Assembly (NCBI RefSeq): GCF_032854445.1
Contig: NC_088296.1
Coordinates: 12,128,706 to 12,192,705 of the forward strand
Reading direction: 5' to 3'
Source: Liolophura sinensis
Taxonomy: Eukaryota > Mollusca > Polyplacophora > Chitonida > Chitonidae
DNA length: 64,000 nucleotides
Within the stretch, counting starts at the first letter, position 1. Each line of letters starts with the position of its first letter. This document shows positions 8,597-63,804 of this stretch, piece by piece. The position numbers and the translations under genes are program-made. The notes under the pieces are model-generated. The model saw nothing but the letters and a program-made list of their open reading frames with translations. It was not told the origin of the DNA and searched no databases.

Positions 8597-8835
8597 ATGA
8601 CAGGGCATAAGAGGAATTCTAGGCTGATGTGTAAATGGATATTTGAGTGTTTTTGGCTGGTGACATTTACATTTGCATCCCGATGTATTTTTGCCGCTGG
8701 TGACCCTCTGAACAGCATTATAAGGCATTACGAACCTTTGAACTTTGATCTGAACTCAGTGCTGTCCAATCATCATCGGGCAAAGAGGTCAAACAAAGAC
8801 GGAACTTTGCGTCTAGATTTCATTGCGCATGGCAG
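8597..8835 (+). CDS. ADAM10: ADAM10-like exon 1 (signal peptide, start of prodomain)
   Basis: Opens with ATG at 8597; a second in-frame ATG at 8627 directly precedes the hydrophobic core [17 protein letters not shown]. It then encodes [14 protein letters not shown] and a basic HHRAKRS segment typical of the ADAM10 prodomain start. The donor is GTAAGT at 8836; the exon ends in phase 2 and its last codon (Arg of HGR) is completed in exon 2. No upstream non-coding exon or promoter could be assigned. Confidence 0.92.
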
Positions 8836-11800
8836 GTAAGTTTACTTTTTACTTCACCTCCTTTACTCCATTCATCGTCTATATTAGGCAACTTCTAAAG
8901 CGGTCTTTTGTATTGTACTACATGTGTGTTTATTTTCTGAGTATTTTTCCTGCAGAAATCTTTTATTATTGCTCTCTCTTTTGAGACGAAAAGGGCACAT
9001 CTCCAACCCCACAGACATTTAATTTATTTACTTATTTGATTGCTGTTTTACGCTGTTCTCAAGAATGTTTCACTTATACGACGGCGACCAGCGTTATGGT
9101 GGGTGGAAACCGGGCGGAGCCCGGGGGATACCCACGACCATCCGCAGGTTGCTAGCAGACTTTCCCACGTACAGCCGGAGAGAAAGCCAGCATGAGCTGG
9201 AGTTAAACTCAGAGCGACCGCATTGGTGAGAGGCTCCTGGGGGATTGGCGCTGCGCTTGCGCGCTAACCAACTGAGCCACGGAGGATCTCACAGACATTT
9301 TAGGGTTACACTTCATTTCTGTAGCGTAAATACATAATGTGTGAGAATACAAATACTAAGTACATTTATTGAAGACATATCCAAGTTTTTCTGAAAATAA
9401 AACTGTCACATGCAATACTACACCTTTCGAAGTCATAACGTTATCACGTAGCAGTAGTGCCTCTTTGCGATTTTTAATATCCCCTCTGTTTGTTTGTTTG
9501 TTTGGCGCCTCCATCTACATGTGTATGTGAAGTTACACGCATACTTGTTGGTATTCTCCCCCCCCCCCCTCTCCCCTTTCGAGTCTTCTTTGTTAAAAAT
9601 GACAACACAACACTTTTAGTAATTCTTATCTATAACGAAGAAACCAGGCACAAGGCTGTATCAGCTACAGTATAATGACAGAGCCATTCAAGCTTTTGAA
9701 CCACGGCAAGGTGTACACATTTTCTTAAGGTTACCCGAGAGACGGGTATCAATGATGCCATTCCCACTTTTTTTGAGTGGTCGCTCAAAACTTGGATTTT
9801 TAAACAAGTTCTAATTGCGAGGTCTTAACGAAGTTTTAAAGTTCGTTCATACGCTAAATCACTCACGTTGAAATAAAAAATATTCATTGAGTATGTAGCT
9901 TGTACGAGCCCTGAATTCAACACAAAGAGGGCAGGACATTTTGCCTCATTAATATATCTATCCGGATGCGCGCAAAGCATATGCGCAGAATTCGTAAAGT
10001 TCCCCATGATACCGACTTTTGATCAATCGACCTACACATAGATACATGCAGAGTACAGCAGCTTAAACAGCATTGAGAAAAGGTTACGAAAAATCTTCTC
10101 ATTAAACTAAGAATCAGGAACGTGTGTCTGTTCGGAGTTTAACACTCCCTGCCCCCAGTAACATTTGCACCCACCTATCAAGCAGTGAGCACCACTTTCA
10201 ACTCTAGATTTGCTTGTCAACCTGTCGAGCTCTTGTTTACGCTTCTTTTTGTCCGATCCTGTCACTAGCGAGCTGTAAGTCCTTCTTTTAAACGTGTGAT
10301 CAGCTATGTTCGTTTACATATGAAGTTTACTGAGCGCTGTGCGCATGCTCCATTTCCACTGAATTGACAGCGCCTCATTTAAATATTCTGGCCGAATTTT
10401 TATGTTTTTGTTATTTTTAAACATTGACTTAACGTACAATGCTGGGGGTGGGATTAACAAAAAGCTTGTGACTTTTACTTCTTGAGAAAAATGCCCGATA
10501 CCCGTGTCATTCTGTAATAAAGTAAAAATACCTAATATCTGGGTGACCTTGTCACTTTAAACCTTCAACAGATGTTGATTCGCCAGACTCGTATTTCGCT
10601 GTTGTTTCTTTGAGTCATATATACTAGACACACTTTCCACACTGACGGAGAGGACATTGTTATTGGTGACCGTGTTTCCAGATTTAGATTATCGGTTTCG
10701 TTTTCAGCGCTGAGTGTTTGGAAACCCCTTGTCCCTCGTTCCCATATTGTTTCTTTGAGTCATATATACTTGAAACATTTCTTTCTGACCGACACCACTT
10801 TAGCACCTTGACATTGTCCGAAAATAAGATCGATTGCGAATATCAACAATTTGTTGTATACGTTCCTTTTTATATACATCCACGCCGTTTTAGCAGCGCA
10901 AATATGCCTACCTCACGTGGTTAAATACAACGAGAGCACAATATATTGGCAAAGTTATGTAATATTAACACCCAATAGTCAGCTTTCTCTGGTGAATTCC
11001 GCCAGTTTGTGAATTGCTGTTACATTCAACTTCTTTGTGCACATAATGCGTTCTCTCAGCCAGTGTACGCATGTGTAAAATATGTGCAGGCTGTTGAAGC
11101 ATCCGGAGATGACGTGTTTATTTAATGTGCCTAAACGTCGCATGCAAACCCAGCCCTCTGCGGCATACCGTTGTGTGAATAATTGAAATTGCTGCTCCAA
11201 AGACAACAAAGGGCCTCTGCAATGACTGAGTTGGCGACATTGACTTGGCAATAACAACGTGAGACGATATTACATTAGACGTGGTATTTCGAAACAATAT
11301 CATTTGGATTTCGAGCTCGGAATGCCTGATGTTATTTTTTTCCTTGTTTGCCAAAGGGGGATTATAATGACAGTTGTTTGTGTTTTTTTATGTCTTTTTC
11401 TCTTCTTGGAGTCGATGTTCTTCTGGCCACAGTGCAGAGATAGGTGTATTTTTAACTGCATCAATTTTACAGGCTGCTACAGTTGTGGGTTCCAGTCACG
11501 GGGTTACCTGGCGAAGGAGGTTGGTCTTCTCCAAGTATATCGGTTTCCTCTTAAACATTCTTCATTACAACGTTAAACGTCAATCAAATAAATATTAAAA
11601 TCGACTTTTACCTAATAAAAGCCCGGGATAATCTTTAATCCTAATACGTAAGTACTGATTATACCTCTTTCAAGGAGATATATATGACGTGGCTGCGGCT
11701 CCAACATTTTGGCATAGTGGAGGAGGGAACGCATTTATAATGTTAGGTTCACACTTTAGAAAATGCTTGAAAATGCTATAATATATAACTTTATTTTTGG

Positions 11801-14800
11801 TCAGATTAATACTTTCAGGCGTTGTGTTCCATTTTAATTCTCATTATGTTAAAACTGAGGTTGTAAAATACCGACAATGTAACATTTGCGTCTTAACTTC
11901 ATGAATACGGCTGTAAATAGATAGCGATCTGATGCGACCACGTTAGTGTCAATTTATTCCATAGTATATACTTAGATATAAGTTACCTGAGGACGGTCGT
12001 GGGTTTCCCATTGCCCGGTTGTTCAAAACTGGATTCTAAATCTGGTTTTAAATACCGGATTTAAGATTAAGCCAAGTCTTCAATTTTGTACCTAGCCTAA
12101 TAAAACTGTGTAAGATAATATTAAATATGAACTAAAACTGCTGCAGTTGTACTTTGACTTTGGAGAACTGCATTGGCTAGAAATTTCAATCTGCTGATGG
12201 TCGTGGGTTTTCCTCGGGCTCTGCCCGGTTTCCTCCCACCATAACGCTGGTTGCTGTCGTAGAAGTGAAATGTTTTTGAGTACGGCTTAAAACACCAATC
12301 AAATAAATAAATAAATGTTTAGGCATAAATACTTTTTAATGGTTATTAATGGCCTTAGTAAACAACTAACCTAGACACCGTTGTTATCACTATATTATTT
12401 TCACTCACAAACTTTCTTCTTTGTTGCAGTCTTTTATATTGTATTATGTGCTTGATACAAAACACGTGGGGCTTATTGTCCAAGATCCCACCCATAGACA
12501 GATAGTCAATATTTAATATGTTATATGATATACCAGATCAATGTGACAAGTAGTCATGCCGCCGTCGTCGTGGGCCGGGTCGATATTGGACAATACAAGT
12601 GCCCAGGCTTACATACTGAAGTGGAATTCGTAAACAGAAAATTATGAAATGGAAGACATGTGCGGAGCAGGGGTGACGAAGAAAGAAAATTGACTGCGTG
12701 GCCATGGATGCCTTTGTTCGCGTTAAAAAATTTATAACGACGTTGTGTCCTTGTAGTCGGTCAGGCAGTGCAAGTGCCTACATGTTGATAGTGCTGCATA
12801 ACTGATGCATCAGTCCGAAGACACCCATCATTCACATAACTCGCTGGCACGGGGTTTCATGAAGTGTGTTTTATTCTGTTAGGTAGCTCTTAGCTAACTA
12901 TACCTATTACTCCACAATATACATTGTCATGTAATTTATGACTTACTAGTACTGACAGCTAAGTGCGCTTCATGAAACCGCGGCCTGATCAGTTCTTGGC
13001 CTATTTGTTATAATATACTCAGTGCATCAAAACGTTAACTTTGTCAAGATTGACATGGTTAACAATTAATAAGCTAATTCAGGGGAATGATATTAGTTCA
13101 CACGCTAAATTATTTGCAAAACTTCAGCATGGTACTAACTGGTTTTCAAACTTGATTTGAAGTTACACAAAAGAACCTATACACAAACTTTTATCAAAAG
13201 TAGACAATGTTTGGAGCAGTTATTGCACGGAAGCTAGCTAACAATGAGAGAAGAGAAATTCATTAACTATTGAAACCTTATGTACGGATCGAGCTGGTTT
13301 TCAAACATGATCTGAGGCTTAGTGATGGGATCTCGTGTACAAAACTTTATCACGATCGGGCAATTTTTTGAGCAGTTATTTGCTCTGAAACTAAAACGTC
13401 ACCAATGAACGGACTGTTCAAAGTAATATCCCTGCCTTTCTCGATCGATAAAGCGTGGGGAAAACAGCCTTAAGACGTTTCATTTTATTTCATTTTAAGC
13501 TATGATCAAATACTTCATTCTCCCTTGCATTTTTTTTCAGGGATTTCAAATTACGTCTGAAGCGTGACACGCTTGTATTCAGCCCGGAATTGGATGTCGT
13601 AACGTCACGTGGCTCTGAGGGTTATGACGTCAGCAGGGCTTACGTAGGTCACGTGAAAGGTATGCAGAATGACTCATCAGTGAATGACTCATCAGTAAAT
13701 GATCCATTTTTAACTAGCAGCACGCAAGTGCTACGTTGAGGTCTAATTTCATTTTCTTTTCTCTTTTTTTAACAGCATCAGGAAAAAATGCATGACGAAA
13801 AATTTATGATAATTTGTTTATGTTTTTTTGGCGCACAGGAGTCTTAAGAATATCTAAGTGATGTGCAAGGCTCTGGCCTCCAACGGAAGGCAATAAAAGT
13901 GACTCTTCAAAAAGCTAAGGAACTAGCTCCATGCAGGCGTTTGGCCTCGAGAATAAAGACTGTAGATGAAAAGATATCGCCATCCGCTATAAGAGTAGAA
14001 CATTAATTACAAAAAAAACTAGAACAAATATTAAATATTCCAATTAATTATTATGCATATTTCATTTGTTGTCTGACCTCATGTTCAACTGTTAGGTTTA
14101 CAGGCAATTGCGTAGTTAAAGCTGGCTTCAGTTAGATTTTTAGTGCAATCAAAATAGTTGAATTTAAAAAAAAAACAATAATGTTGCAAGTGTGACGCTT
14201 ATCTTCTACCTCATCAATAAATATTTCTCTGTTAGATTTTATGAATAACATCTTGGCTGGCAGAAACTGCTGAGTTAAGCGAAATTTTGAAATATAAAAC
14301 AGCATGAACTGAGTAAAGTAGGTCGGTGTTACGTCATTCAATGTCAGTTTCAAGGCCAGGCTGAGGTGTTTTAATATAGCAGTCAATATTTAGCTGGCTG
14401 CTACTGAGATTTGTTAAATACGTCTTGCATTTGTTCCTCAGGTGCTCGTGTGGCTCAAGATTGTACATAGGTTGACGACTGACAAATAGTTTTGTTAATT
14501 TTTTTTAAATCAAGACTAGTAGTTAATTAATTCCATCTTCGTTGTTCTCACGTATAAACGCAGTTTGTCCAAACATGGCCGTTCATAGCTTCTCATTTAA
14601 CTTAAAAGGCACATTTAAAGTGACTGTGTACGTGCCGTAAGGTGGATATCAAAACGGGAATGCCAGTTAATACACACGTGACAAGTTCATGAATATTAAG
14701 GAAGGCATTCATTCCTCAGTTGTATAAATGTACAGACTGAGGTGGGAGGGGGTGAAATGTTCAATAAGTGAATGACACGTTCCGTGGAACTGAGAGTATT

Positions 14801-15781
14801 ATACCATCAGAGCAGATTGCAGAAAGGTCTGTCACTTTAGATGGATTTCTTACCTTGATGCGAATGTACCGAGAGCTATGACCTGGCATTTGAAAATTAA
14901 TCATAAATATTCTATCCCTCATGTGTGCATAAAATTACAACCTGGAATTTAAAGTAAGAATGCACTAACACATAAATAAAGGTTGAAATGAATAATAATG
15001 CGTAGCGGGAACCGAATATCACATATTCCTATCTGATTTAAAGATTTCCTCAATTCTTTACATTTTTTCTAGGCGCTCCGAGTTCACACGTACATGGGGT
15101 GGTGACGTCACTGGGTCATTTTGAAGGGAAGATCATCCTGGGAGACGACGACGTTTTCGTCATTGAGAAAGTCTCGCGTTACTTCCCAGAATCAGATTCA
15201 CTCAGTTTTAATTCAGTGATTTACAAAGCATCCGATGTTGAGTTTGACATTAGTAGGACTCTGTGTCACTCAGATAATCTACATAAAGACTTACATCGCT
15301 ATCAGAGGAACCTGACATCGCCTATACGGCAAACCGGAAGTCATAATGGGACCGAAGACAATACTTTGGGCCTTAGTGATAGGGCAAATAGCGACAGAAA
15401 ATCTCAAGTAGACACTGCGATATTACTAGACAAAGACTTATCTCTGATTTCATTTACACAGCCGAAAAATGAGATTCTTGAGCCAATTTTCAATGATGGG
15501 AAATCGTCCGACCACAACGCTAAAACTGAGATAAGTGCTGATTCTTTTGTGTCCGAAACTGTAGGTTCTGTAAATCACAACATATACTTTCGTAAGAAAC
15601 GAGCAGTGTCTATGAATGACAAGACGATCTGCGAGTTATATCTACAAGCAGACCATTTGTTTTATCAACATTTTTCCAGCAATACGGAAACAGTTATTGA
15701 GCAACTTACGCAGCACGTGCAAGCCGTCAATGCCATCTACAAAAATATCGGTGAGTTTAATATTGTCGTAATGTTACAGTT

Positions 15782-15824
<43 letters not shown>

Positions 15825-18800
15825 TGCTGGCTTCCTCTCCGGCCGTACGTGGGAAGGTCTGGCAGCAACCTGCGGATGGTCGTGGCTTTTCCCCGGGCTC
15901 TGCCCGGTTTCATCCCACCACAATGCTGGCCGCCGTCGTATTAGTGAAATATTCTTAAGAAAGCCGTAAAACACCAATGAAATAAAATAAATTTATTTAT
16001 TTATTTGTTTATTTATTTATATATTTGTTTATTTATTAGTTGAAAAATTTTGGAGTTTAATTTTGGAATTTTTTGGAACTCAGCGACTTTTTTACTTATA
16101 CGATGATTCAGGTTTATAGAAGGAAGAAACCAGTTTCGCGGCCGAAGTAGCCAAAAGTTGGTGTGACGTCATTGGTGAAAAACATTGTTAATAAGGCTCA
16201 TAACGTCCGCTGAACAACCCAGACTTCTATTGCTTGTGTAATTCAGTGCAAAAAAAAACTCTAAGAAATAATTGAAGATATTTTTTTCAAATGTATTTTT
16301 TGATGATCTTTTCACTGATACTTACCTTATTTTTAATGTTTCTTTTCCATTAAATGTTTCAACTTCACAGATTTTGATCAAGACGGGAAACCCGATGAGA
16401 TCGGTTTTATCATAAAGAAAATCAAGATCCACACTGACCCGGATGTAGAGGGATACCGGTACAAGGGAAATTACGGAGTTGAAAAATTCCTGGAGTTAGT
16501 GTCAGAGGAGAATTATGACTTCGTCTGTCTGTCTTATATGTTCACGCACAGGGACTTTGAAGGCGGAACCCTGGGTCTAGCATGGACAGCGGACCTCCAT
16601 AATGCTGGGGGCATATGTGATAAATATAATGTAAGTATTTTGGAGCCGAGAAATACTTACCAAGGGGGCGGTGTGAAAACAGAGCAAATCAAAACTGATC
16701 AAAAAATAACCATGTCTAGTTCTGTAAATCTTTTCGAAAGGAAAATATGGTCTCGTAAGGAATACATCTGCAGGGTCGGGCACAAGAACTGTGCTACCGC
16801 AACCTATACACATCTCATAAACACAAAAACGAGCTAGGTATTCAACTTTGATAATTGTCGATAATCAAAATTATTATTATATTTTTTCCATTGTTCTTGG
16901 AAATTATCTCGTCCAGTTTTTATTATGGTGATAAAAAAGAGTGCGGTCGCTGTGAGTTCAAGCCCAGCTCCTTCTCCATATTCAATCATTTTTAAAAATT
17001 GAAATGGAAAACATCTTACACTCGTTTTCATGTTACAGTAAATCAGATAGCGTGGTTTTGTCCAACATTCACTGACGCTGATGTACGTTACTTAGGCCAG
17101 TATTCGAACAACCGGCGTTGAGGAGAATTAGTAGCGAGTGCCGAGTCATTAATGTCCTTATAAGGTCACACGAGATCTGGGTTTCATCCCATTCTCAACT
17201 CGTACTGTTCTTGTTGTCTTAGTGGCATTAATCGATCAACAGCGTTTTTTTTTCGTGTGGTCTTGCACAAAGTTCATTGGAGACCACTCGCCTTCCACCA
17301 ATATGACTCACGTCACATGGGAGAGTTCGCCAGTAACTTGCCAAAGGTCAGTGGTTTGCTCCAGGCACACCTGTTTTCTTGATTGTGTGCCATCGTAGAA
17401 GGAAAAAGTCGTTTTATGGTTTTCAAAAACAGTCAAATAAATTTTAAAAAAATAAAATTATAAAATGTTTACATGTTTACCAACGGCAAAATGCCGTTTC
17501 GACATCGGTCCAACGCTGGTAATCCATGATTGTCCATGATTGTCCACGATTGTCCATGATTGTCCACGATTGTCCATGATTGTCCACGATTGTCCATGAT
17601 TGTCCATGATTGTCCACGATTGTCCATGATTGTCCACGATTGTCCATGATTGTCCACGATTGTCCATGATTGTCCATGATTGTCCACGATTGTCCACGAT
17701 TGTCCATGATTGTCCACGATTCTCCATGATTGTCCACGATTGTCCATGATTGTCCACGATTGTCCACGATTGTCCACGATTGTCCATGATTGTCCATGAT
17801 TGTCCACGATTGTCCATGATTGTCCACGATTGTCCACGATTGTCCATGATTGTCCACGATTGTCCATGATTGTCCATGATTGTCCACGATTGTCCATGAT
17901 TGTCCACGATTGTCCACGATTGTCCATGATTGTAAACGATTGTCCACGATTGTCCATGATTGTCCACGATTGTCCATGATTGTCCACGATTGTCCACGAT
18001 TGTCTATGATTGTCCACGATTGCTGTCTGACTGCCACCTGGATAGTCTTAACTCCTCGCTGTTTCTTTTTCTATAGGCATATCAGGGCACAATGAAGAGT
18101 CTGAACACAGGAATCGTCACGGTGCTGAACTTCGGACAGTTTGTTCCGCCTACCGTGTCTCACGTGACCTTAGCACACGAGCTGGGGCATAATATGGGGT
18201 CACCGGTAAGGGGTCACGTTTAGTTGGCTATATTGCAACTAGCAAGATAAGTTGAATATGGACTGAATGATGCAGAAGTAGTTGTGTCTTTCCCATTAGC
18301 GGAGTTTTAGAGGATTTCCTTAATTTCCTTGGTATCGCCGCGGTCTCTATGGTTACATAGTTAGAGTGAGGCACAATGTCTAAGACACCACACCGCGCTG
18401 AGGAGATCTGCACTTGACTTGTTCATTTTGTATACGCTGAGTTCCAAGTGAGGAAGTCAAACGATTTTCAATCGTTTTAGGCCTGATGCGAATTAAAATT
18501 AAACGTAGAATTGATGTAATTGTGTGTTTGCTTGGGATTTATCGTCGCTGTTTTTGAGCAAGTCTAGGCCATGACCGACATTTATATTGCACCCTTACTG
18601 GGTTGAACCCAATCAAGAAAACAGGTGTGCCTGGAGCGTTAATGGTGAAGATAGAAAATAAAATCGTAGGCTGAAGACTTGCCGGCACCTCGTGACCGGG
18701 GGGATAAACATACAAGGGAATAAATGGGTAAATAATTTCAAAGCTATTACTTTGAAACTCGAGTCTGCAACTCGAGTAATCAAGAAATCTGCAGAGGGTA

Positions 18801-21800
18801 TTAAGTATAGTACTTTATGACTTGTATGTTTACTGCGTCACGACACTGTACCCGACTTCCTACAGCCTAACGTTCTTAGGCCTTCGTTGTCTAGTGGTCG
18901 GCGTTGCAGCCCGCTAATCCAGCCGCCTCTACTCTGCGATAGCTGTGGGTTCAAATCCGGTTTCATGCTGGATATATCTCCAGTTTTACTTGGGAAGGTC
19001 TGACAGCAACCTGCACATGGTCGTAGGCTCCCCCCAGGGCTCTGTCCCACCATAATGCTGACCCTCGTCGTACAAGTGGGAAATTCTTATGAAAAACTCC
19101 TATGAAATAAATAAACAAATAAATAATTTTGTTTATACCATACCGTATATCCTTGCCAAGAAAATACTCCAAGGGGCTTTTGTTATAAGTATTTAGAAAA
19201 TATGCTGAAAACCGTTTAAATCGCTTAACAGACAAACAGTTACCACATATTAAACTCTATCTCGTTTTTTTTTTTTTTTGGTCTCATCAGCATGACCCTT
19301 CCACACAGGCTTGTACCCCTGGTGGTGACATCGGAAACTACATCATGTATGCCAGAGCGACATCTGGCGACAGACCGAATAACGAGAGGTTCAGCAGCTG
19401 TAGCATAGAGAGCATGGGGCCTGTGATCGATGCGAGAGGACGAAACAGTAATGGGTGCTTCACTGGTAGGATTGATTTAAGCGTTTATTTTGGGGCTTTT
19501 GTATGTCTCGTAGAATTACTTGTTTGTCAGGTAGAGAAAAATCTCTTTCGCTTTCATTTTAACGCCCCATTTTAAGTTAAAACAGTTAGTATGTCTAGTG
19601 CTAAATGTTTTAGGATTCTAAGCGTACATCCATATTATATCTAATAGTCCTCACATTCTGCGGGTTTACCTTAACTTGTCATTACTTTATCCAGCTTATA
19701 GTTCTTACCCCCGGGCTCAGTCGTGTTTTCTCCCACCATAATGCTGGCCGCAGTCATATAAATCAAATATTTTCGAGCAAGGCGTAGAACACCAATCAAA
19801 TAAATAAATAAATAAATAAATAAACAAATACTTAGGTATAAATATCTTTTAATGGTTATTATTGGCCCTAATAAACAAATAATCTTGGCACTGTTTTTAT
19901 CACCATTTAATTTTCACTCACAAACATTCTGCTTTGATGCAATCCTTCATCCATAAAGTTTATGCTTGATACAAAACACGTGAGGGTTAAATAAATAAAC
20001 AGGTGTTCTCAGGTGATCTGTATTGAACATGGTTTTGGAAAGTGGTTTTGATGTTACCTGACCTGGAAAATCAATTATGGTTGACGATTGGTATGTGAAT
20101 GTCTGTGTCCTAGTTCACCTACATTTCTTGACACAACTTACACTTTCGATCTGATGGCTCAACTTTCGGTTTCTCATTTGGACTTGCGGTGTACCACTTT
20201 CACTTTTGATGGATCGCGTTCACTTTCGGTTTCAGCTTACACTGACTCCATGTGTGGTAACAAAGTGGTTGAGGAAGGGGAGGAATGTGACTGTGGTTGG
20301 GATGACGAGTGCACAGAACAGTGCTGTAATCCTCAATCCTCAGACAGCTCCGGGCCAAAAGGATGCACTCTCAAACCAAGCGCCGCCTGCAGGTATATAA
20401 AACCGAAACAACGACAACAGCACAACTTAAGGCACAAAATGAAAACATCAGCGTGTTCTTTTCTTCTGAGTGAACAGGCTTAGCCAAAGATCTGTGAAAT
20501 TTTTTTCCCTACCAAAATGCTATTACGTAAACACAATAAGGTACTAGAAGTACAATTCGCATACACGGCTGAATTCCAAGATTCTGTTGGTACAGAGATA
20601 GGGGGTAATAATTAAAATAAACCGTGATGAGAGCGATGATGCGGGACGATCCCAACCATGACTCGGTTACGGCCTTATGTCAGGAGATTTATCAGATATT
20701 TGGTGAAGAGCGATAGTTTCCTCACGGGTTATTACCTCCCTTGTGTAAAAGTGTAATGTTCTCGAGAGCAGTGTAAAATACGAATCAGCAAAATAACTAA
20801 AAAAATAAATACGAATCAGCAAAAAAAAATTGAAGAAGATTGCAAATTATGAAAAAAATGTATTTGTGGGAGATAAATTTTAAAGGGCGTTTAGTTGATA
20901 AGGCGTTTTATTGGGTTTTTTTTTCATATATATATATATGATCTCTATGAATCTATTTACTTTCTCTCCTAGGAATTGTTATAATGACACTCATGTTTAC
21001 CCATTTCTTTCTTGCTCAGCCCCAGCGTGGGATTATGTTGTACTGAACAGTGCTCCATTGTCCCCGCCAGTGAGCAGAAACTCTGTCGCGCAGCCTCGTC
21101 ATGTCAGGAGTCGGCTTACTGCGAATATCCTTTTCTTTATTTGAGTAAAGAAACACATTTCCCAGTTTGTTTTTTGCAATCATGGTAAGGAAATATCTTA
21201 ATATAGATATCTTTCCCGACAATCATCTCGAGACCAGTACCCTATTTAGTAGGGTACGCATTTTTATTTTTTGAAAGAAGAATTTTTTTTTCAAAGGACA
21301 AAGCAGTTATTCAGCTTTGTCCTAGATTGTTCGGTAACAGTTCAAAAGAGTTTTTTAGCCTTGGCCTAATCAGTGGGTATTTATACACGTAAATTTTCTG
21401 CACAATGCCCGTTGGTTCGCACAACGTGGCCCTTTCAAACGACTGCTGATTAACCCACTGTGCCGTAAGAGTTGTGGCCCTTTGCTAAATAATATAAAGA
21501 GGGAAGACTTTCTGACTTGCGGATAGCGGAGACGGTCAGTCGGCAGTTCATTGGTTCAATATGTTCATGCGCAGCCGGGAAATCTGATACGTCACTACAC
21601 TAAAAATAGAAAAAGCACATGGCCAGTCTCTACTGGATGTCCAGGCAAGCTGATGACCGTAACAACAATTGACAATTACTGATAACGGGCGGGATGACTG
21701 GGTTGGCAGCGTTACATATATCTCGTAAGGTTTATCGCTTGTTTTTCATTGTTTCTTTGGCAAGCAGAGAATATATATCAAGTTAGTAAGAATGTATACC

Positions 21801-24800
21801 TTGTTATAGGCTGCATGTTAATGAAAAAATGTACAAAAATCGATTTAATTTTAACCCAGGAGTAAGAATTGTGACGCAGATTCCCGTAGGAACTTATTAT
21901 CTACAAACAATACGGGTGCAATACATTATCATTACATCCAAATAGTGTATTTTTTCATAAGCATAGATGTTTGTCGAAGCAAGAGATGAATAAACGAAGA
22001 ATCAAATTTTCAGGTGACATCCAAAAATAATTTTTGTAGTATTACAATTGAATAGTAAATGCAGTGTTATATAAATGTTTTCCAAATTTGCACAAATGGT
22101 ATGTGTTTTATTTTTTAATTTTTTGTGTTATCTGGGTTAATATTAAGGTAAACTACATCCATGATGTATACTCTCTGCTTCCCAAATAAACAACAAAAAT
22201 AAGCGATGAAACTTACGAGATTCCTGTGACGCTGCCAACCCAGTCATCCGGGTCGTTATCAGTAGTTGTCAATTGTTGTTACGGTCATCAGCTTGCCTGG
22301 ACAACCAGTGGAGACTGGCCATGTGCTTTTTCTATTTTTAGTGTAGTGACGTATCAGATTATCCGGCTGTGCAAGAATATGTTGAACCAATGAACTGCCG
22401 ACTAACCTTTCTCCCATATCTGCAAGTAGAATTTCTCCTAGTAGCAACCTTGTTCCTGTGGCCCATTATCCAGTGGTAATTGAATGCCTCTGAAACGACT
22501 GGTGGAAAATATTGTGCCGGTAACATCGCTTTAAAGGCATTTCGTGATAGATGGCCATTGGATTCATTTGTGTGAAAGTAGTCTTTATTCTAACGTTTTC
22601 TTTGAGACGCTCGAAATGGATACGGTTCCACTTTATAAGTTGTTGGTATTTGTTTTGATTTTGAAATATTTAAAGAGAAAATCCCCTTTGCCTGTCCCAA
22701 GCCTGTATTTAAATGGTCGTGTCGGAATTCACTAGCGGTATTGCCTTATGGATACAAGAGAATAAGTAATCATCTGGATATCGGATTTTCATATGAATGA
22801 AATTGTTTTTTAAAAGTTTTTAGTAATACTTGTGAATTCCTTGACACTTGATTACTGGGGACAACTACAACGCTATCTGTCCACAGTCTGTCGCGAAGCC
22901 CAACAAGACGGAGTGTGGACCCAGTTCGGTGTGCTATAAGGGGGTAAGAACATTGTTAACATGTATGCAGTGTGCACTTCTGGCCGAGGGGCTTTCCTTT
23001 CTGTCGCTAGGACAGACGGTGTGCAGGTTCAATCCCGACCTTGAACTGGGAAATTTTGTACTCCTCCGATCTCAGTGTCCTTGGGGTATTTTGTGCTCCT
23101 CCGATCTCAGTGTCCTTGGGGTATTTTGTACTCCTCCGATCTCATTGTCCTTGGGGTATTTTGTACTCCTCCGATCTCATTGTCCTTGGGGTATTTTGTA
23201 CTCCTCCTATCTCAGTGTCCTTGGAGTATCTTGTACTCCTCCTATCTCAGTGTCCTTGGGGTATTTTGTACTCCTCCGATCTCAGTGTCCTTGGGGTATT
23301 TTGTACTCCTCCGATCTCAGTGTCCTTGGGGTATCTTGTACTCCTCCTATCTCAGTGCCCTTGGGGTATTTTGTACTCCTCCTATCTCAGTGTCCTTGGG
23401 GTATTTTGTACTCCTCCGATCTCAGTGTCCTTGGGATATTTTGTACTCCTCCGATCTCAGTGTCCTTGGGGTATTTTGTACTCCTCCGATCTTATTGTCC
23501 TTGGGGTATTTTGTACTCCTCCGATCTCAGTGTCTTTGGGGTATCTTGTACTCCTCCGATCTCAGTGTCCTTGGGATATTTTGTACTCCTCCGATCTCAG
23601 TGTCCTTGGGGTATTTTGTACTCCTCCTATCTCAGTGCCCTTGGGGTATTTTGTACTCCTCCGATCTCAGTGTCCTTGGGGTATTTTGTACTCCTCCGAT
23701 CTCAGTGTCCTTGGGGTATTTTGTACTCCTCCAATCTCAGTGTTCTAGTGATATTTTGTACTCCTCCAATCTCAGTGTTCTAGTGATATTTTGTGCTCCT
23801 CCTATCTCAGTGTCCTTGGGATATTTTGTACTCCTCTGATCTCAGTGTCCTTGGGGTATTTTGTACTCCTCCAATCTCAGTGTTCTAGTGATATTTTGTA
23901 CTCTTCCCATCTCAGTGTCCTTGGGGTATTTTGTACTCCTCCAATGTCATTGTTCTTGGGATAAATGTGACAATAAGCGGATGACGATGCTCCTGTGGAC
24001 GTTTGACCAGTCAGATGTTGAAGACCACTTGTCTTCAACCAATTAAATGTACATACCAACACGTCACATGCGGGAAAGTTTGACAGCAATCTGTCAAAGG
24101 TCCGTAGTTTACGCTGGGTACACTGGTTTCCTCCACCCATAAAACTGATCGCAATCGTATATTTGAAAAAATTCAAATGAAACAAATGTCTGTCCCTACA
24201 GCCACCCATAAAATTGTCAGTCAGAGAGACTATCAACCCATGCATCAATGAATCTTTCAATCAGTCAATCTATTCTTCCCCCTATCAACCAATTAACACA
24301 TTCAATAATCAGTCAACCAATCAGTCAACCAGACGAATCATGGTCTATGAATGGATCAATCTCATATTACCCCAGGAGTGCACTGGCTCGCTCTGTGTGG
24401 TGTACGGTCTGGAATCCTGCCAATGCGCACCGGAAGTTGCCGGGGATTGGAGAGATCCCCGACTGTGTCACCTCTGCTGCAAGACCCATGACCCGGACTC
24501 CGTCTGCCGGTTAGTGTGTGCAATACTTTCTTCATGATCCTTATATACTGCATCTGGTTCCACTATAAGTAAAGTGAGAGCAGCGACGGCAGAGTGATCA
24601 CTGGAGTCAAATACAACCAGTGAAATCCGTTCTCTTGTTTGTTAGGGTAGTATTCCACATGTTTATGTAAATGCCTAGATAACAGCAAATTGTTCACCCT
24701 GTAGCTTCGGATTTTGGTAAAGAAATGTAGTGATATAACAGGCCGTTTCTGGGGTTACGTCAACCGGGTCCCTCGCTCTGTTCTCCACTCAGTTTTTCCT

Positions 24801-26713
24801 GGATTCTTTATGATTTAAAGTGAGAGCGTTAGTCATTTACCTGTCAAAGCGCGATTGATTGCGCCTGGAACACCAGTTTTCTCTCTCAATATACCTGACT
24901 ACGGTCAAAGTAGTGGGATTTTTACAGAAGGTGGTTTTCGAATTGTTCAAATATTTTCAAAACAACGTGTCTATACGGCATAGTGCCGCACAGAAATTGT
25001 TGGAAAAAAGTTCGCGCAATTTGTAATGAGCGTCATTTTCATAAACCTATAATTGAACATATTATATGGCACCATTTAAACATATACTGCTAAATGTTAA
25101 CGCTATTACACATGAATGAATACTGGTATTCGTAAATGTGATTGGTTGCTGTTTTCAGATCCAGTTATGAATTCAACGATGCTCACAACGCCCTTCCCAA
25201 TACGTCTGCCCAGCCCGGAAGTCCGTGTAACAACTACCAAGGTTTCTGTGATGTTTTCCATAAATGTCGAGAGGTAAAGCAACGGGATATTTAGAGCTAT
25301 CTTCCATGAAAAAGCCTTTTTGAATGAACTCGAATTGCTGTCTGGTAGTTCTACATTTCATGTTGCAAAGTCTCTGTGATTTGCAAATACAGTGTTTCTT
25401 TTATTTGCAGGTTGATCCATCTGGCCCTCTACAGAACATCCGAAAGTTGCTGTTTTCAGGGGAGACAATCGAGACGCTGAAGCAATGGTTACAGGCGTAC
25501 TGGTATGCCGCTGTGGCTGTTGTGGTGGGATTTATCATCTTAATGGTATGTCAAACTTTTGGGCACCAACCTGTCTTAAAACTGATGTGTCTGTCTACAA
25601 GTCCGAAATCTCGGAAACTATTGATGTTGTACTCAGTATACAAGGGCTGTGTCTTGTAGTCAACAAGTCCGAAATATTAAAAACCAATCGACGTATCTAA
25701 TTGGTATTATTTTTCGTACAGTGGGGACTAAAGTGCCAATAGCATTGTACTGGGCCTAGACTGGTATTAAGATTTAAGACTGGCTTAAATTTAAATATAC
25801 TTTTGCACAGCCGGCCTCTGGGCTACAAGCCCTAAACCTAGAAAGCCAACTGACTTAGCCATCCGATTGATCCAGTCAGCATTCTAAATACTTCGGTAAC
25901 TGAAAATGGCTGACTTCATAAGGACAACGTCGTAAAATGTGAAATAATTTTGAAATAAGAAAATAAAATCATGACTGACAAGGCCTGAGAAACCGTTGTT
26001 GGGTTAAGGGATTGTAAAAGCGCAGTATAAGATACGTCGCAGATTACAGCTGTGGCCATTGTTGCAGCGAAATGAGTAGAGCGACAGGAACTTAGAACGT
26101 TTGAGTGGCGTGAAAATTTGAATTGTCATTTAAATGCTTATTTTTGGACAATTTGAGTTACAATTGGGACTTCTTAACATGTGGTATGCAAAGACAGTCA
26201 TATCAAAGTAAATTTGAGATTGCAGAACGATAACTTTTTCCAAGTTTGACCGGACTAAACAAGAAGACAACAGTCTGTTCCTTATCTCAATGAAGTCGCT
26301 GTGAGTTCAAGTTCAGTTCATGCTGGCTTCCTCTCAGGTCGTAAGTGGGAAAGTCCTCCAGCAACCTGCGGATGGTCGTGGGTTTCCAGCGGGCTCTGCC
26401 CGGTTTCCTCCCACCATACTGCTGACCGCCGTCGTATAAGTGAAATATTCTTGAGTACGGCGTAAAACACCAATCAAATAAATAAAATAAATAAATATTT
26501 CAATAAATAATTAAAAAGAGAGTTAGTAACCCTTCTCTATCCATGTGTTAACAGGCCTTATTCATCCGAATCTGTAGCAAAACCACTCTGCCACAGAAGG
26601 TGATGAAGACAGTGAAGAGGAAAGTGCATCCAACGCGGACAAGGCGGAAGCCGGAGAAGCGTCGCCATGATACGCCTAGGTCTGGCGTCAGCACTGTCGA
26701 ATTGGCTGTGTAG
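8597..26713 (+). CDS. ADAM10: ADAM10/Kuzbanian-type transmembrane metalloprotease, complete, 13 coding exons
   Basis: The joined exons (8597-8835, 13541-13659, 15073-15750, 16371-16630, 18077-18205, 19291-19465, 20236-20392, 21020-21124, 22856-22943, 24376-24509, 25159-25273, 25411-25545, 26555-26713) give 830 codons plus stop, with phases matching at every junction. Seen in order: a hydrophobic signal segment near residues 14-33; a prodomain with a candidate switch Cys at 184; a furin site RKKR at 293-296; the zinc site [11 protein letters not shown] at 466-476; a Met-turn [12 protein letters not shown] around Met494; a disintegrin-like and cysteine-rich region about 534-730; a transmembrane helix about 763-785; and a basic tail ending VELAV. 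ADAM10 proteins are plasma-membrane sheddases that cut Notch and other surface proteins. The match to ADAM10 rather than ADAM17 or other ADAMs rests on motifs such as [17 protein letters not shown] and the GLCCTEQC region. Vertebrate ADAM10 is about 750 residues; the excess here is mostly in the prodomain. The alternative start Met11 (8627) would give a more ordinary signal peptide. Expected partner: a Notch-type substrate, not visible here. Confidence 0.95.
9019..9287 (-). mobile_element. SINE-A, full length, reverse orientation
   Basis: Runs from an AATTTATTTACTTATTT tail to the tRNA-like head (GCGCGCTAACCAACTGAGCC then ACGGAGG), which is the reversed A-box; the reversed B-box is near GAGTTAAACTC. 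Confidence 0.9.
12198..12315 (+). mobile_element. SINE-A fragment (3' half)
   Basis: GATGGTCGTGGGTTTTCCTC to ACACCAATCAAATAAATAAA; 5' truncated. Confidence 0.85.
12849..12989. mobile_element. Short palindromic MITE-like element
   Basis: The left end GGGGTTTCATGAAGTGTG is matched inverted by GTGCGCTTCATGAAACCGCG at the right end; the interior is about 90 bases. A related single end is at about 2497-2515 (TTTCATGAAACCGCGGCC). Terminal GGCCGCGGTTTCATGAA ends suggest a dispersed family. Confidence 0.6.
13541..13659 (+). CDS. ADAM10: ADAM10-like exon 2 (prodomain)
   Basis: Preceded by a pyrimidine tract and TTTCAG; encodes [18 protein letters not shown] and VGHVKG. These line up with the ADAM10 prodomain, where HGR is followed by a hydrophobic/basic strand and KRD. 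Donor GTATGC at 13660, phase 1. Confidence 0.93.
13660..15072 (+). other. ADAM10-like intron 2
   Basis: GT-AG intron, AT-rich. Its first bases contain a short direct repeat (GAATGACTCATCAGT, 13667-13697). Nothing else recognised. Confidence 0.85.
15073..15750 (+). CDS. ADAM10: ADAM10-like exon 3 (prodomain, furin site, start of protease domain)
   Basis: The largest exon, 226 codons. The first part ([42 protein letters not shown], then RTLCHSD with Cys184) matches the ADAM10 prodomain. A low-complexity polar stretch of roughly 90 residues follows that has no obvious vertebrate counterpart. RKKR at 293-296 then marks the furin cut before [15 protein letters not shown], the start of the protease domain. 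Donor GTGAGT at 15751, phase 1. The frame stays open through the donor into a TTTA microsatellite and a SINE up to 15944, so a retained intron would give a prodomain-only protein. Confidence 0.94.
15751..16370 (+). other. ADAM10-like intron 3
   Basis: GT-AG intron holding a TTTA microsatellite (15781-15823), a 5'-truncated SINE-A and a second TTTA run (15985-16037). Confidence 0.85.
15823..15995 (+). mobile_element. SINE-A, 5'-truncated
   Basis: ATGCTGGCTTCCTCTCCGGC through CCACAATGCTGGCCGCCGTC to ACACCAATGAAATAAAATAA; it sits between two TTTA microsatellites. Confidence 0.88.
16371..16630 (+). CDS. ADAM10: ADAM10-like exon 4 (protease domain)
   Basis: Acceptor AACTTCACAG; encodes [36 protein letters not shown] and [20 protein letters not shown]. 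The last two blocks are diagnostic of ADAM10 (DRDFDDGVLGLAWVG in vertebrates). Donor GTAAGT at 16631, phase 0. Confidence 0.95.
17266..17440 (+). mobile_element. SINE-D-like element
   Basis: GAGACCACTCGCCTTCCACC, GTCACATGGGAGAGTTCGCC, then GGTTTGCTCCAGGCACACCT. The same order of motifs recurs at 24005-24185 and 45285-45390. Confidence 0.5.
17521..18020. repeat. 10-bp minisatellite, 50 units, no length variation
   Basis: Unit TGTCCAYGAT, with Y alternating C/T irregularly. Fifty consecutive units occur without a single insertion or deletion; only four units deviate elsewhere (first unit AATCCATGAT, TCTCCATGAT, TGTAAACGAT, TGTCTATGAT). Because 10 is not a multiple of 3, all reverse frames read the same ten-residue peptide ([10 protein letters not shown]-like); these frames are not genes. 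Confidence 0.97.
18077..18205 (+). CDS. ADAM10: ADAM10-like exon 5 (zinc-binding site)
   Basis: Acceptor TTTTTCTATAG, with a good branch-site candidate CTTAACT about 30 nt upstream. Encodes [34 protein letters not shown]. His466, Glu467 and His470 are the first zinc ligand, the catalytic base and the second ligand; the third ligand His476 is the first codon of exon 6. The 10-bp minisatellite ends only 56 nt upstream of this exon. Confidence 0.96.
18206..19290 (+). other. ADAM10-like intron 5
   Basis: GT-AG intron containing a SINE with a different tRNA-like head (18876-19115). The acceptor follows a poly-T tract. Confidence 0.85.
18876..19115 (+). mobile_element. SINE with variant tRNA-like head and SINE-A body
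   Basis: The head reads GGCCTTCGTTGTCTAGTGGT with B-box GGGTTCAAATCC, unlike the GGCTCAGTTGGTTAGCGCGC head of SINE-A. From ATGCTGG onward the body and tail are SINE-A-like (GGGAAGGTCTGACAGCAACC to AAATAAATAAAC). Confidence 0.7.
19291..19465 (+). CDS. ADAM10: ADAM10-like exon 6 (third zinc ligand, Met-turn)
   Basis: Starts with the third zinc-binding His476 and continues [37 protein letters not shown]. The [12 protein letters not shown] Met-turn is essentially identical to ADAM10 of other animals. It ends at GCFT, the end of the catalytic domain. Donor GTAGGA at 19466, phase 1. Confidence 0.96.
19466..20235 (+). other. ADAM10-like intron 6
   Basis: GT-AG intron with a SINE-A tail at 19705-19825; nothing else recognised. 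Confidence 0.85.
19705..19825 (+). mobile_element. SINE-A fragment (3' tail)
   Basis: CTCCCACCATAATGCTGGCC to ACACCAATCAAATAAATAAA; 5' truncated. Confidence 0.85.
20236..20392 (+). CDS. ADAM10: ADAM10-like exon 7 (disintegrin-like region)
   Basis: Acceptor TCGGTTTCAG; encodes [20 protein letters not shown] followed by [10 protein letters not shown] and [10 protein letters not shown]. The [13 protein letters not shown] block opens the disintegrin-like domain of every ADAM. Donor GTATAT at 20393, phase 2. Confidence 0.95.
20393..21019 (+). other. ADAM10-like intron 7
   Basis: GT-AG intron, AT-rich, with a duplicated AATACGAATCAGCAAAA segment (20778 and 20808). No gene or SINE seen. Confidence 0.85.
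21020..21124 (+). CDS. ADAM10: ADAM10-like exon 8 (disintegrin/cysteine-rich)
   Basis: Acceptor TTCTTTCTTGCTCAG. In the frame set by exon 7 it encodes [35 protein letters not shown], matching the ADAM10 pattern PCCTAQC...C...C. It ends with GA of a split Asp codon immediately before ATATCCTTTT, a U12-type AT-AC donor. The nearest GT downstream (21145) would add a non-conserved hydrophobic stretch and cannot be joined in frame to exon 9. Confidence 0.9.
21125..22855 (+). other. U12-type AT-AC intron (ADAM10-like intron 8)
   Basis: The 5' end reads ATATCCTTTT, the U12 AT-AC donor consensus. The 3' end carries TTCCTTGAC at 22837-22845, an exact U12 branch-site consensus, with the branch A (22844) 11 nt before the terminal AC at 22854-22855. 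All other introns of this gene are GT-AG. The intron also holds a long foldback element (about 21500-22440). Confidence 0.88.
21500..22440. mobile_element. Foldback element with ~0.3-kb inverted arms
   Basis: The arm at about 21500-21790 (GCAGTTCATTGGTTCAA, AGCACATGGCCAGTCTCTAC, GACTGGGTTGGCAGCGT) recurs inverted at about 22157-22440 (TTGAACCAATGAACTGC, GTGGAGACTGGCCATGTGCT, ACGCTGCCAACCCAGTC). The spacer of ~370 bp is AT-rich and non-coding. The whole element lies inside the U12-type intron. The family is not recognised; short open frames across the arms are not genes. Confidence 0.8.
22856..22943 (+). CDS. ADAM10: ADAM10-like exon 9 (cysteine-rich), entered through an AC acceptor
   Basis: Encodes (D)[20 protein letters not shown] and GPSSVCYKG, matching the ADAM10 CP...KPNFTDC...VCINGQC segment. 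A TGA at 22842-22844 lies in this frame and no AG occurs between it and the conserved residues, so the exon must start after the AC at 22854-22855. Joined to exon 8 this gives [12 protein letters not shown]. Donor GTAAGA at 22944, phase 0. Confidence 0.9.
23046..23960. repeat. 35-bp minisatellite, about 26 units
   Basis: The unit combines CTCCTCCGATCTCAGTGTCC and TTGGGGTATTTTGTA. Variants at a few positions (CCGAT/CCTAT/CCAAT; TTGGGG/TTGGGA/CTAGTG). All three + frames stay open through most of the array because the unit has no stop and is not a multiple of 3; these frames are not separate genes. Confidence 0.96.
24005..24185 (+). mobile_element. SINE-D-like element
   Basis: GAAGACCACTTGTCTTCAAC, CGTCACATGCGGGAAAGTTT, then CTGGTTTCCTCCACCCATAA; poorly conserved tail. 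Confidence 0.5.
24376..24509 (+). CDS. ADAM10: ADAM10-like exon 10 (cysteine-rich)
   Basis: Acceptor ATTACCCCAG; encodes [18 protein letters not shown] and [15 protein letters not shown], the counterpart of SICEKYGLEECTCA...LCHVCCMKKMDPSTC in vertebrate ADAM10. Donor GTTAGT at 24510, phase 2. Confidence 0.95.
24510..25158 (+). other. ADAM10-like intron 10
   Basis: GT-AG intron; no repeat or gene recognised. Confidence 0.85.
25159..25273 (+). CDS. ADAM10: ADAM10-like exon 11 (juxtamembrane cysteine-rich)
   Basis: Acceptor CTGTTTTCAG; encodes [20 protein letters not shown], matching [21 protein letters not shown] of ADAM10 almost residue for residue. Donor GTAAAG at 25274, phase 0. Confidence 0.96.
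25411..25545 (+). CDS. ADAM10: ADAM10-like exon 12 (stalk and transmembrane helix)
   Basis: Acceptor TTATTTGCAG; encodes [17 protein letters not shown], then [20 protein letters not shown]. The hydrophobic run is the single transmembrane helix, completed by ALFIRIC of exon 13. Donor GTATGT at 25546, phase 0. Confidence 0.95.
25546..26554 (+). other. ADAM10-like intron 11-12 interval before the last exon
   Basis: GT-AG intron between exons 12 and 13, with a SINE-A copy at 26290-26500. No gene seen. Confidence 0.85.
26290..26500 (+). mobile_element. SINE-A, lacking the A-box end
   Basis: Starts near the B-box (CGCTGTGAGTTCAAGTTC) and runs to TACGGCGTAAAACACCAATC and an ATAAATAAAATAAATAAA tail. 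Confidence 0.9.
26555..26713 (+). CDS. ADAM10: ADAM10-like exon 13 (cytoplasmic tail, stop)
   Basis: Acceptor GTGTTAACAG; 52 residues and TAG at 26711-26713. After ALFIRICSK the tail is rich in Lys/Arg ([19 protein letters not shown]) and ends STVELAV. It lacks the proline-rich SH3-binding segments of vertebrate ADAM10. The last residues (Leu-Ala-Val) fit a class II PDZ ligand, but binding is inferred only. Confidence 0.93.
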   Translation, partial: ALFIRICSKTTLPQKVMKTVKRKVHPTRTRRKPEKRRHDTPRSGVSTVELAV

Positions 26714-55407: not shown

Positions 55408-63674
<8,267 letters not shown>

Positions 63675-63804
63675 GTAACCAGTGTGGTCAGAACAGGACA
63701 AATCTGATATAAGCAAAATATAAAAATTCCATGCAATCACTGCCCCCAGCATCAGGGAAGAAACACCAGTATATGTTGACACTGAAATAACTGTTTATTT
63801 TGAT

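Follow-up and report, generated by a model that had tools for sequence, protein, structure and literature searches.

An ADAM10-like gene of a chiton with one AT-AC intron

The 64,000-nucleotide stretch of the chiton Liolophura sinensis analyzed here (hereinafter the window; contig NC_088296.1, positions 12,128,706 to 12,192,705) carries on its forward strand an ADAM10-like protease gene, one intron of which shows the AT-AC termini and splice signals of the U12-type class that is removed by the minor spliceosome. The gene is modeled with 12 exons at 8597..25545, its start codon being assumed and the exons of the cytoplasmic tail lying outside the model. The encoded protein displays the features of the ADAM10 family, namely the HExGH zinc site together with the disintegrin and Cys-rich regions. 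Among human structures, it matches ADAM10 first (8esv, expectation value (E) 8.5e-136) and ADAM17 next (8snl, E 1.4e-46), and across 265 shared columns it is 37.0% identical to human ADAM17 as compared to 55.8% for human ADAM10. This family identity was recovered with the full protein: a PDB search with the 62-residue joined peptide alone gave no match, and Pfam searches with single exons of the gene gave only matches below the curated cut-offs.

The intron in question, intron 8, spans 21125..22855 on the + strand (1731 nt, phase 2). It is flanked by exon 8 (21020..21124, 105 nt, + strand), which has a U2-type intron upstream, and by exon 9 (22856..22943, + strand), which in our model continues the Cys-rich region as GDNYNAICP...CYKG. 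The 5′ splice site, ATATCCTTTT (21125..21134), matches the U12-type donor consensus ATATCCTTT at 9/9 positions, while the 10 other modeled introns of the gene reach 3–5/9. Likewise, the branch site TTCCTTGAC (22837..22845) matches the consensus TTCCTTRAY at 9/9 positions, as compared to a best score of 5–8/9 in those 10 introns. The branch A at 22844 lies 11 nt before the terminal AC (22854..22855), and the last 34 nt of the intron contain no polypyrimidine tract. GT-AG termini are found in 10 of the 11 modeled introns, with AT-AC in intron 8 alone. An earlier note on this DNA, made from its letters alone, had read the donor, the branch site and the AC end as the signature of a U12-type AT-AC intron. 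The letters and coordinates that it gave are correct, and scoring against the U12 consensus motifs, a check that it suggested, together with the termini leaves this as the best reading of the intron. The exon–intron boundary reads ...TAC TGC GA/ATATCCTTTT, and joining 21124 to 22856 produces the Asp codon GAT and restores the Cys-rich reading across the junction, just as the note had described. Its further observation that a TGA at 22842-22844 stands in the downstream frame also holds, the next AG ending at 22886, behind the conserved Cys-Pro.

The rarity of these motifs was gauged in 170,001 bases of the genome, counted on both strands (339,786 positions). In this sample, 106,001 bases of which were chosen for holding ADAM relatives, the 9/9 donor occurs three times, only at the junctions of the window gene and of the two related genes P4 and P17 described below, and the 9/9 branch motif occurs six times, twice at ADAM10-family junctions. 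The signals of the window intron exceed chance expectation. Counting the donor 8-mer by itself across the genome (13,224 + 13,348 places, with 10,215 + 10,112 for the reversed control) was uninformative, because the listed places include tandem arrays that raise the number.

Minor-type introns at the same codon in related genes

A whole-genome protein search with the joined Cys-rich region of the window gene yielded eight places. Three of these are the window gene itself and three are relatives (E 2.0e-9, 4.9e-4 and 0.011), which ordered exon matches over longer stretches confirm; the remaining two (L024 and L025), with E above 1, were left out of the homolog count. Two multi-exon ADAM10-family genes, P4 (C2:12.688 Mb) and P17 (C2:17.456 Mb), reside on the same contig as the window. 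Their matches end at the same residue as window exon 8 and are followed by ATATCCTTTA in P4 and ATATCCTTTT in P17. Both genes have a phase 2 AT-AC intron at this point with the branch A 11 nt from the AC end; that of P4 is 773 nt long with the branch site TTCCTTGAC, and that of P17 is 580 nt long with the branch site CTCCTTGAT. The peptides joined across the junction read CNGTAGSCP and CNGLSASCP, respectively. To the question raised in the earlier note, whether other ADAM10 genes share the intron type, this one genome gives a positive answer for both of its further multi-exon ADAM10-family genes.

The multi-exon ADAM17 gene (C4:11.12 Mb) has the donor GTATCCTTG at the same codon and in the same phase. 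Its intron, 2075 nt in length, belongs to the GT-AG minor subtype, with the branch site TCCCTTGAT and an AG 14 nt past the branch A that restores CTGTSFQCP. A minor-type intron is present at the junction codon in 4/4 of the multi-exon ADAM10/17 genes found, being AT-AC in three and GT-AG in one. The neighboring intron 7 (20393..21019 in the window, + strand, phase 2), an ordinary GT-AG intron, is common to all four genes and provides an internal control; the arrangement of a U2-type intron, exon 8 and a U12-type intron is the same across them. A further relative at C6:762 kb (L033) consists of a single exon with an 870-residue open frame, which aligns unbroken with window residues 306-777 and has LCDGVSASCP at the closed junction. 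This gene may be a retrocopy exempt from minor splicing.

Components of the minor spliceosome

The genome encodes the small nuclear RNAs (snRNAs) of the minor spliceosome. The U12 snRNA has five matches, four of them above the Rfam gathering score and three at 127–132 bits, and all matches of U6atac (2/2), U11 (2/2) and U4atac (1/1) are above that score. A cluster at C1:65.318-65.336 Mb holds two strong U12 copies along with two divergent ones (54 and 52.2 bits). On the protein side, PDCD7, which we take to be a U11/U12 protein, has two matches (best E 1.5e-6) and CCDC84/CENATAC has four (best E 5.5e-18), above the Pfam cut-offs in both cases. With the best offset chosen near the 5′ end of each of the genome's own snRNAs, U11 pairs with the donor letters TCCTTTT through six Watson–Crick pairs and one G-U pair out of seven, U6atac pairs with six of the seven letters of TATCCTT, and U12, through GTAAGGAA, pairs with 8/8 branch-site letters once the G of GA is excluded from the duplex. 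The earlier note had taken the intron to imply an active U12 spliceosome in this animal; the four minor snRNAs, PDCD7 and CENATAC are indeed encoded, and activity as such is a prediction from these genes.

We posit that U11 would pair with the donor ATATCCTTTT and U12 with the branch site TTCCTTGAC, with U6atac subsequently taking the place of U11 at the donor, a replacement that is part of the general mechanism of minor splicing. The minor spliceosome would join 21124 to 22856 in this manner, and the major spliceosome would remove the introns before and after.

Ancestry of the intron and alternative readings

We consider it very likely that intron 8 is a genuine U12-dependent AT-AC intron of an ADAM10-family gene and that it descends from the shared ancestor of ADAM10 and ADAM17. 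In a tree of seven partial proteins, the ADAM17 proteins of human and of L. sinensis stand apart, with 100/100 support, from the five others, namely human ADAM10, the window gene, P4, P17 and the single-exon gene. Since a minor-type intron interrupts the same codon in the sister genes, including ADAM17, the intron is probably very old, being present before the ADAM10/ADAM17 split and having undergone one change of subtype since. Under this scenario, the common ancestor would have possessed a minor intron that persists as AT-AC in the three ADAM10-family copies and as GT-AG in the ADAM17 copy. A blastn comparison of the four introns (plus strand, E 1e-3) aligned none of them with another, so they are not recent copies, and recent common copying was rejected as their origin. 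Their splice signals are kept although the intron sequences cannot be aligned. Measured over the 265 columns that are filled in five rows, P17 is 61.1% identical to human ADAM10, the window gene 55.8% and P4 49.1%; because P17 is the closest of the three, the window gene is not necessarily the one-to-one ortholog of human ADAM10. The age of the intron, its actual splicing and the reliance of protein output on minor splicing are what we infer from the gene sequences.

Several points weigh against an inherited U12-type intron. The comparison of intron positions covers the genome of one species only, and the tree is unrooted, is built from partial sequences, includes two long-branch rows and leaves the forks within the ADAM10 group unsettled. 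The ADAM17 intron scores 8/9 at both the donor and the branch site, which is weaker than in the ADAM10 genes, and its acceptor was picked via the peptide match. The query with human ADAM17 returned, besides the C6 place, three weak matches on C4 (E 0.06-0.25), where ordered exon matches then established the multi-exon ADAM17 gene. A classical ADAM-like locus runs as one exon through the junction position, with no intron there; it is one of two disintegrin-family matches, the other being the C6 gene, and falls below the Pfam cut-off. Within the window gene, the ordinary GT-AG intron 2 holds an 8/9 branch-like match, which makes the branch motif weak evidence when taken by itself. Finally, the window protein has two additional residues (GDNYN) straight after the junction relative to the six other aligned proteins, and no acceptor that could remove them lies 6 nt further downstream, where the letters are GA.

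Among the alternatives, that of separate gains of U12-type introns at one codon in ADAM10 and ADAM17 fares best, and we deem it very improbable. It draws on the differing subtypes, AT-AC in the ADAM10 family as against GT-AG in ADAM17, on the classical ADAM-like locus that lacks the intron, and on the 55 candidate events of minor-intron gain proposed in PMC6865273. However, the codon and phase are identical and the adjacent GT-AG intron 7 is shared too, while a pan-eukaryotic survey reports very little evidence of new minor introns (PMC10639083). Nor does the difference in subtype need a second gain, because 36 intron clusters with both minor subtypes, AT-AC and GT-AG, are recorded in PMC2831892.

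Lower still we rank the possibility that a GT-AG solution was missed, the donor or acceptor lying elsewhere or the stretch containing a small exon, and that the major spliceosome removes the intervening sequence. A U2-like donor, GTAAGG at 21185, is indeed present in an open frame 60 nt farther downstream. We enumerated the single-intron solutions linking exon 8 to exon 9 with GT-AG, GC-AG, AT-AC, AT-AG or GT-AC termini, and scored them by adding up their similarities to human ADAM10 and P17. Of the 1735 solutions in frame, 101 had no stop and did not exceed 160 residues. Among these 101, the AT-AC pair 21125/22855 ranks first with a score of 276, as against 213 for the best GT-AG or GC-AG solution, and the conserved GDNYNAICP stretch is lost in all five top GT-AG/GC-AG solutions; these figures refer to single introns, microexon solutions being outside the enumeration. 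Moreover, three homologous genes have the same junction with minor-type signals. The 21185 site (ATG/GTAAGG) is, in its own right, a strong-looking U2-type donor 60 nt into the minor intron and, should minor splicing fail, a candidate cryptic site.

The rare kind of U2-type AT-AC intron removed by the major spliceosome, examples of which appear in PMC2831892, has a next to negligible chance of applying here, as the window intron has C at +5 and a complete U12 branch site and lacks a polypyrimidine tract in its final 34 nt, whereas the sodium channel U2-type AT-AC introns described in that paper have G at +5.

Relation to known minor introns and functional implications

Intron 8 is an ordinary, conserved and well-preserved minor intron rather than one of a new kind, and its host family does not figure as such in the literature searched. 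A text search of the literature found neither ADAM10 nor ADAM17 named as a minor-intron host, the supplementary lists of MIDB and IAOD being outside that search; either of these may already include the human ADAM10 or ADAM17 gene. The structures of ADAM genes are compared in figures of PMC3055250 and PMC2148059. According to three papers (PMC10639083, PMC7367187, PMC8280824), roughly one in four human minor introns is of the AT-AC type.

The best-known minor introns shared by paralogs are those of the voltage-gated sodium and calcium channels (PMC6865273). The window intron resembles these and other A-type introns in its termini, donor, branch site and spacing, in being the lone minor intron of its gene, in its non-zero phase and in being shared by paralogs. 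Unlike the channel families, ADAM10/ADAM17 is not named in connection with minor introns in the literature searched. The presence at one codon of AT-AC in the ADAM10 family and GT-AG in ADAM17 parallels the subtype switching documented in PMC2831892; in contrast to the cases there, it lies between ancient paralogs within one genome and its direction is unsettled. A third point of comparison is CENATAC: its depletion in human cells affected 92% of the A-type minor introns and 24% of the G-type ones (PMC8280824). Like those dependent introns, the window intron is of the AT-AC class, and CENATAC (CCDC84) has matches in the genome; however, the dependence was measured in human cells.

On the reading of an inherited U12-type intron, the minor spliceosome is probably needed for making the three ADAM10-family proteases and ADAM17, with the single-exon relative predicted to escape this requirement. 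Proteases of the ADAM10 family cut Notch, and ADAM10 and ADAM17 are the sheddases of the Notch and epidermal growth factor (EGF) receptor pathways. The split of the ancestral intron into two subtypes could conceivably allow ADAM10 and ADAM17 output to be tuned separately through the amount of CENATAC or minor snRNAs, although we regard this as rather unlikely; if it were true, the single-exon relative would be free of such control. As far as the literature searched goes, an important protease family is added to the hosts of minor introns. With an AT-AC intron in three copies, a GT-AG intron in another and a single exon in a fifth, all within one genome, it offers a test case for the persistence and subtype switching of minor introns, and the gene set is also suited to asking whether the CENATAC dependence of A-type introns holds in a mollusc.

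Repeats and other features

Intron 8 contains a foldback repeat (21534..22407, + strand) with 213-nt arms that are 91% complementary and separated by 448 nt, along with 38-nt inner arms. A search with one arm gave 11 matches in the genome, 2 of which are the window's own arms. Other matches are again paired in opposite orientation close by (C1:56.71 Mb and C4:22.316 Mb), which suggests that the repeat belongs to a mobile element. We judge it to be a passenger in the intron.

Two minisatellites lie in other introns of the gene: one of 20 bp with 25 copies in intron 4 (window 17523-18022) and one of 35 bp with 25.9 copies in intron 9 (window 23053-23960), several frames of the latter being open. 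Further downstream, open frames on the + strand at 56898-63712 are, by eye, rich in EGF-like cysteine patterns and are probably exons of a multiple-EGF gene. Elsewhere in the genome, the animal's identity as a mollusc is borne out by the molluscan haemocyanin domain PF14830, a family that marks molluscs, with eight tandem matches.

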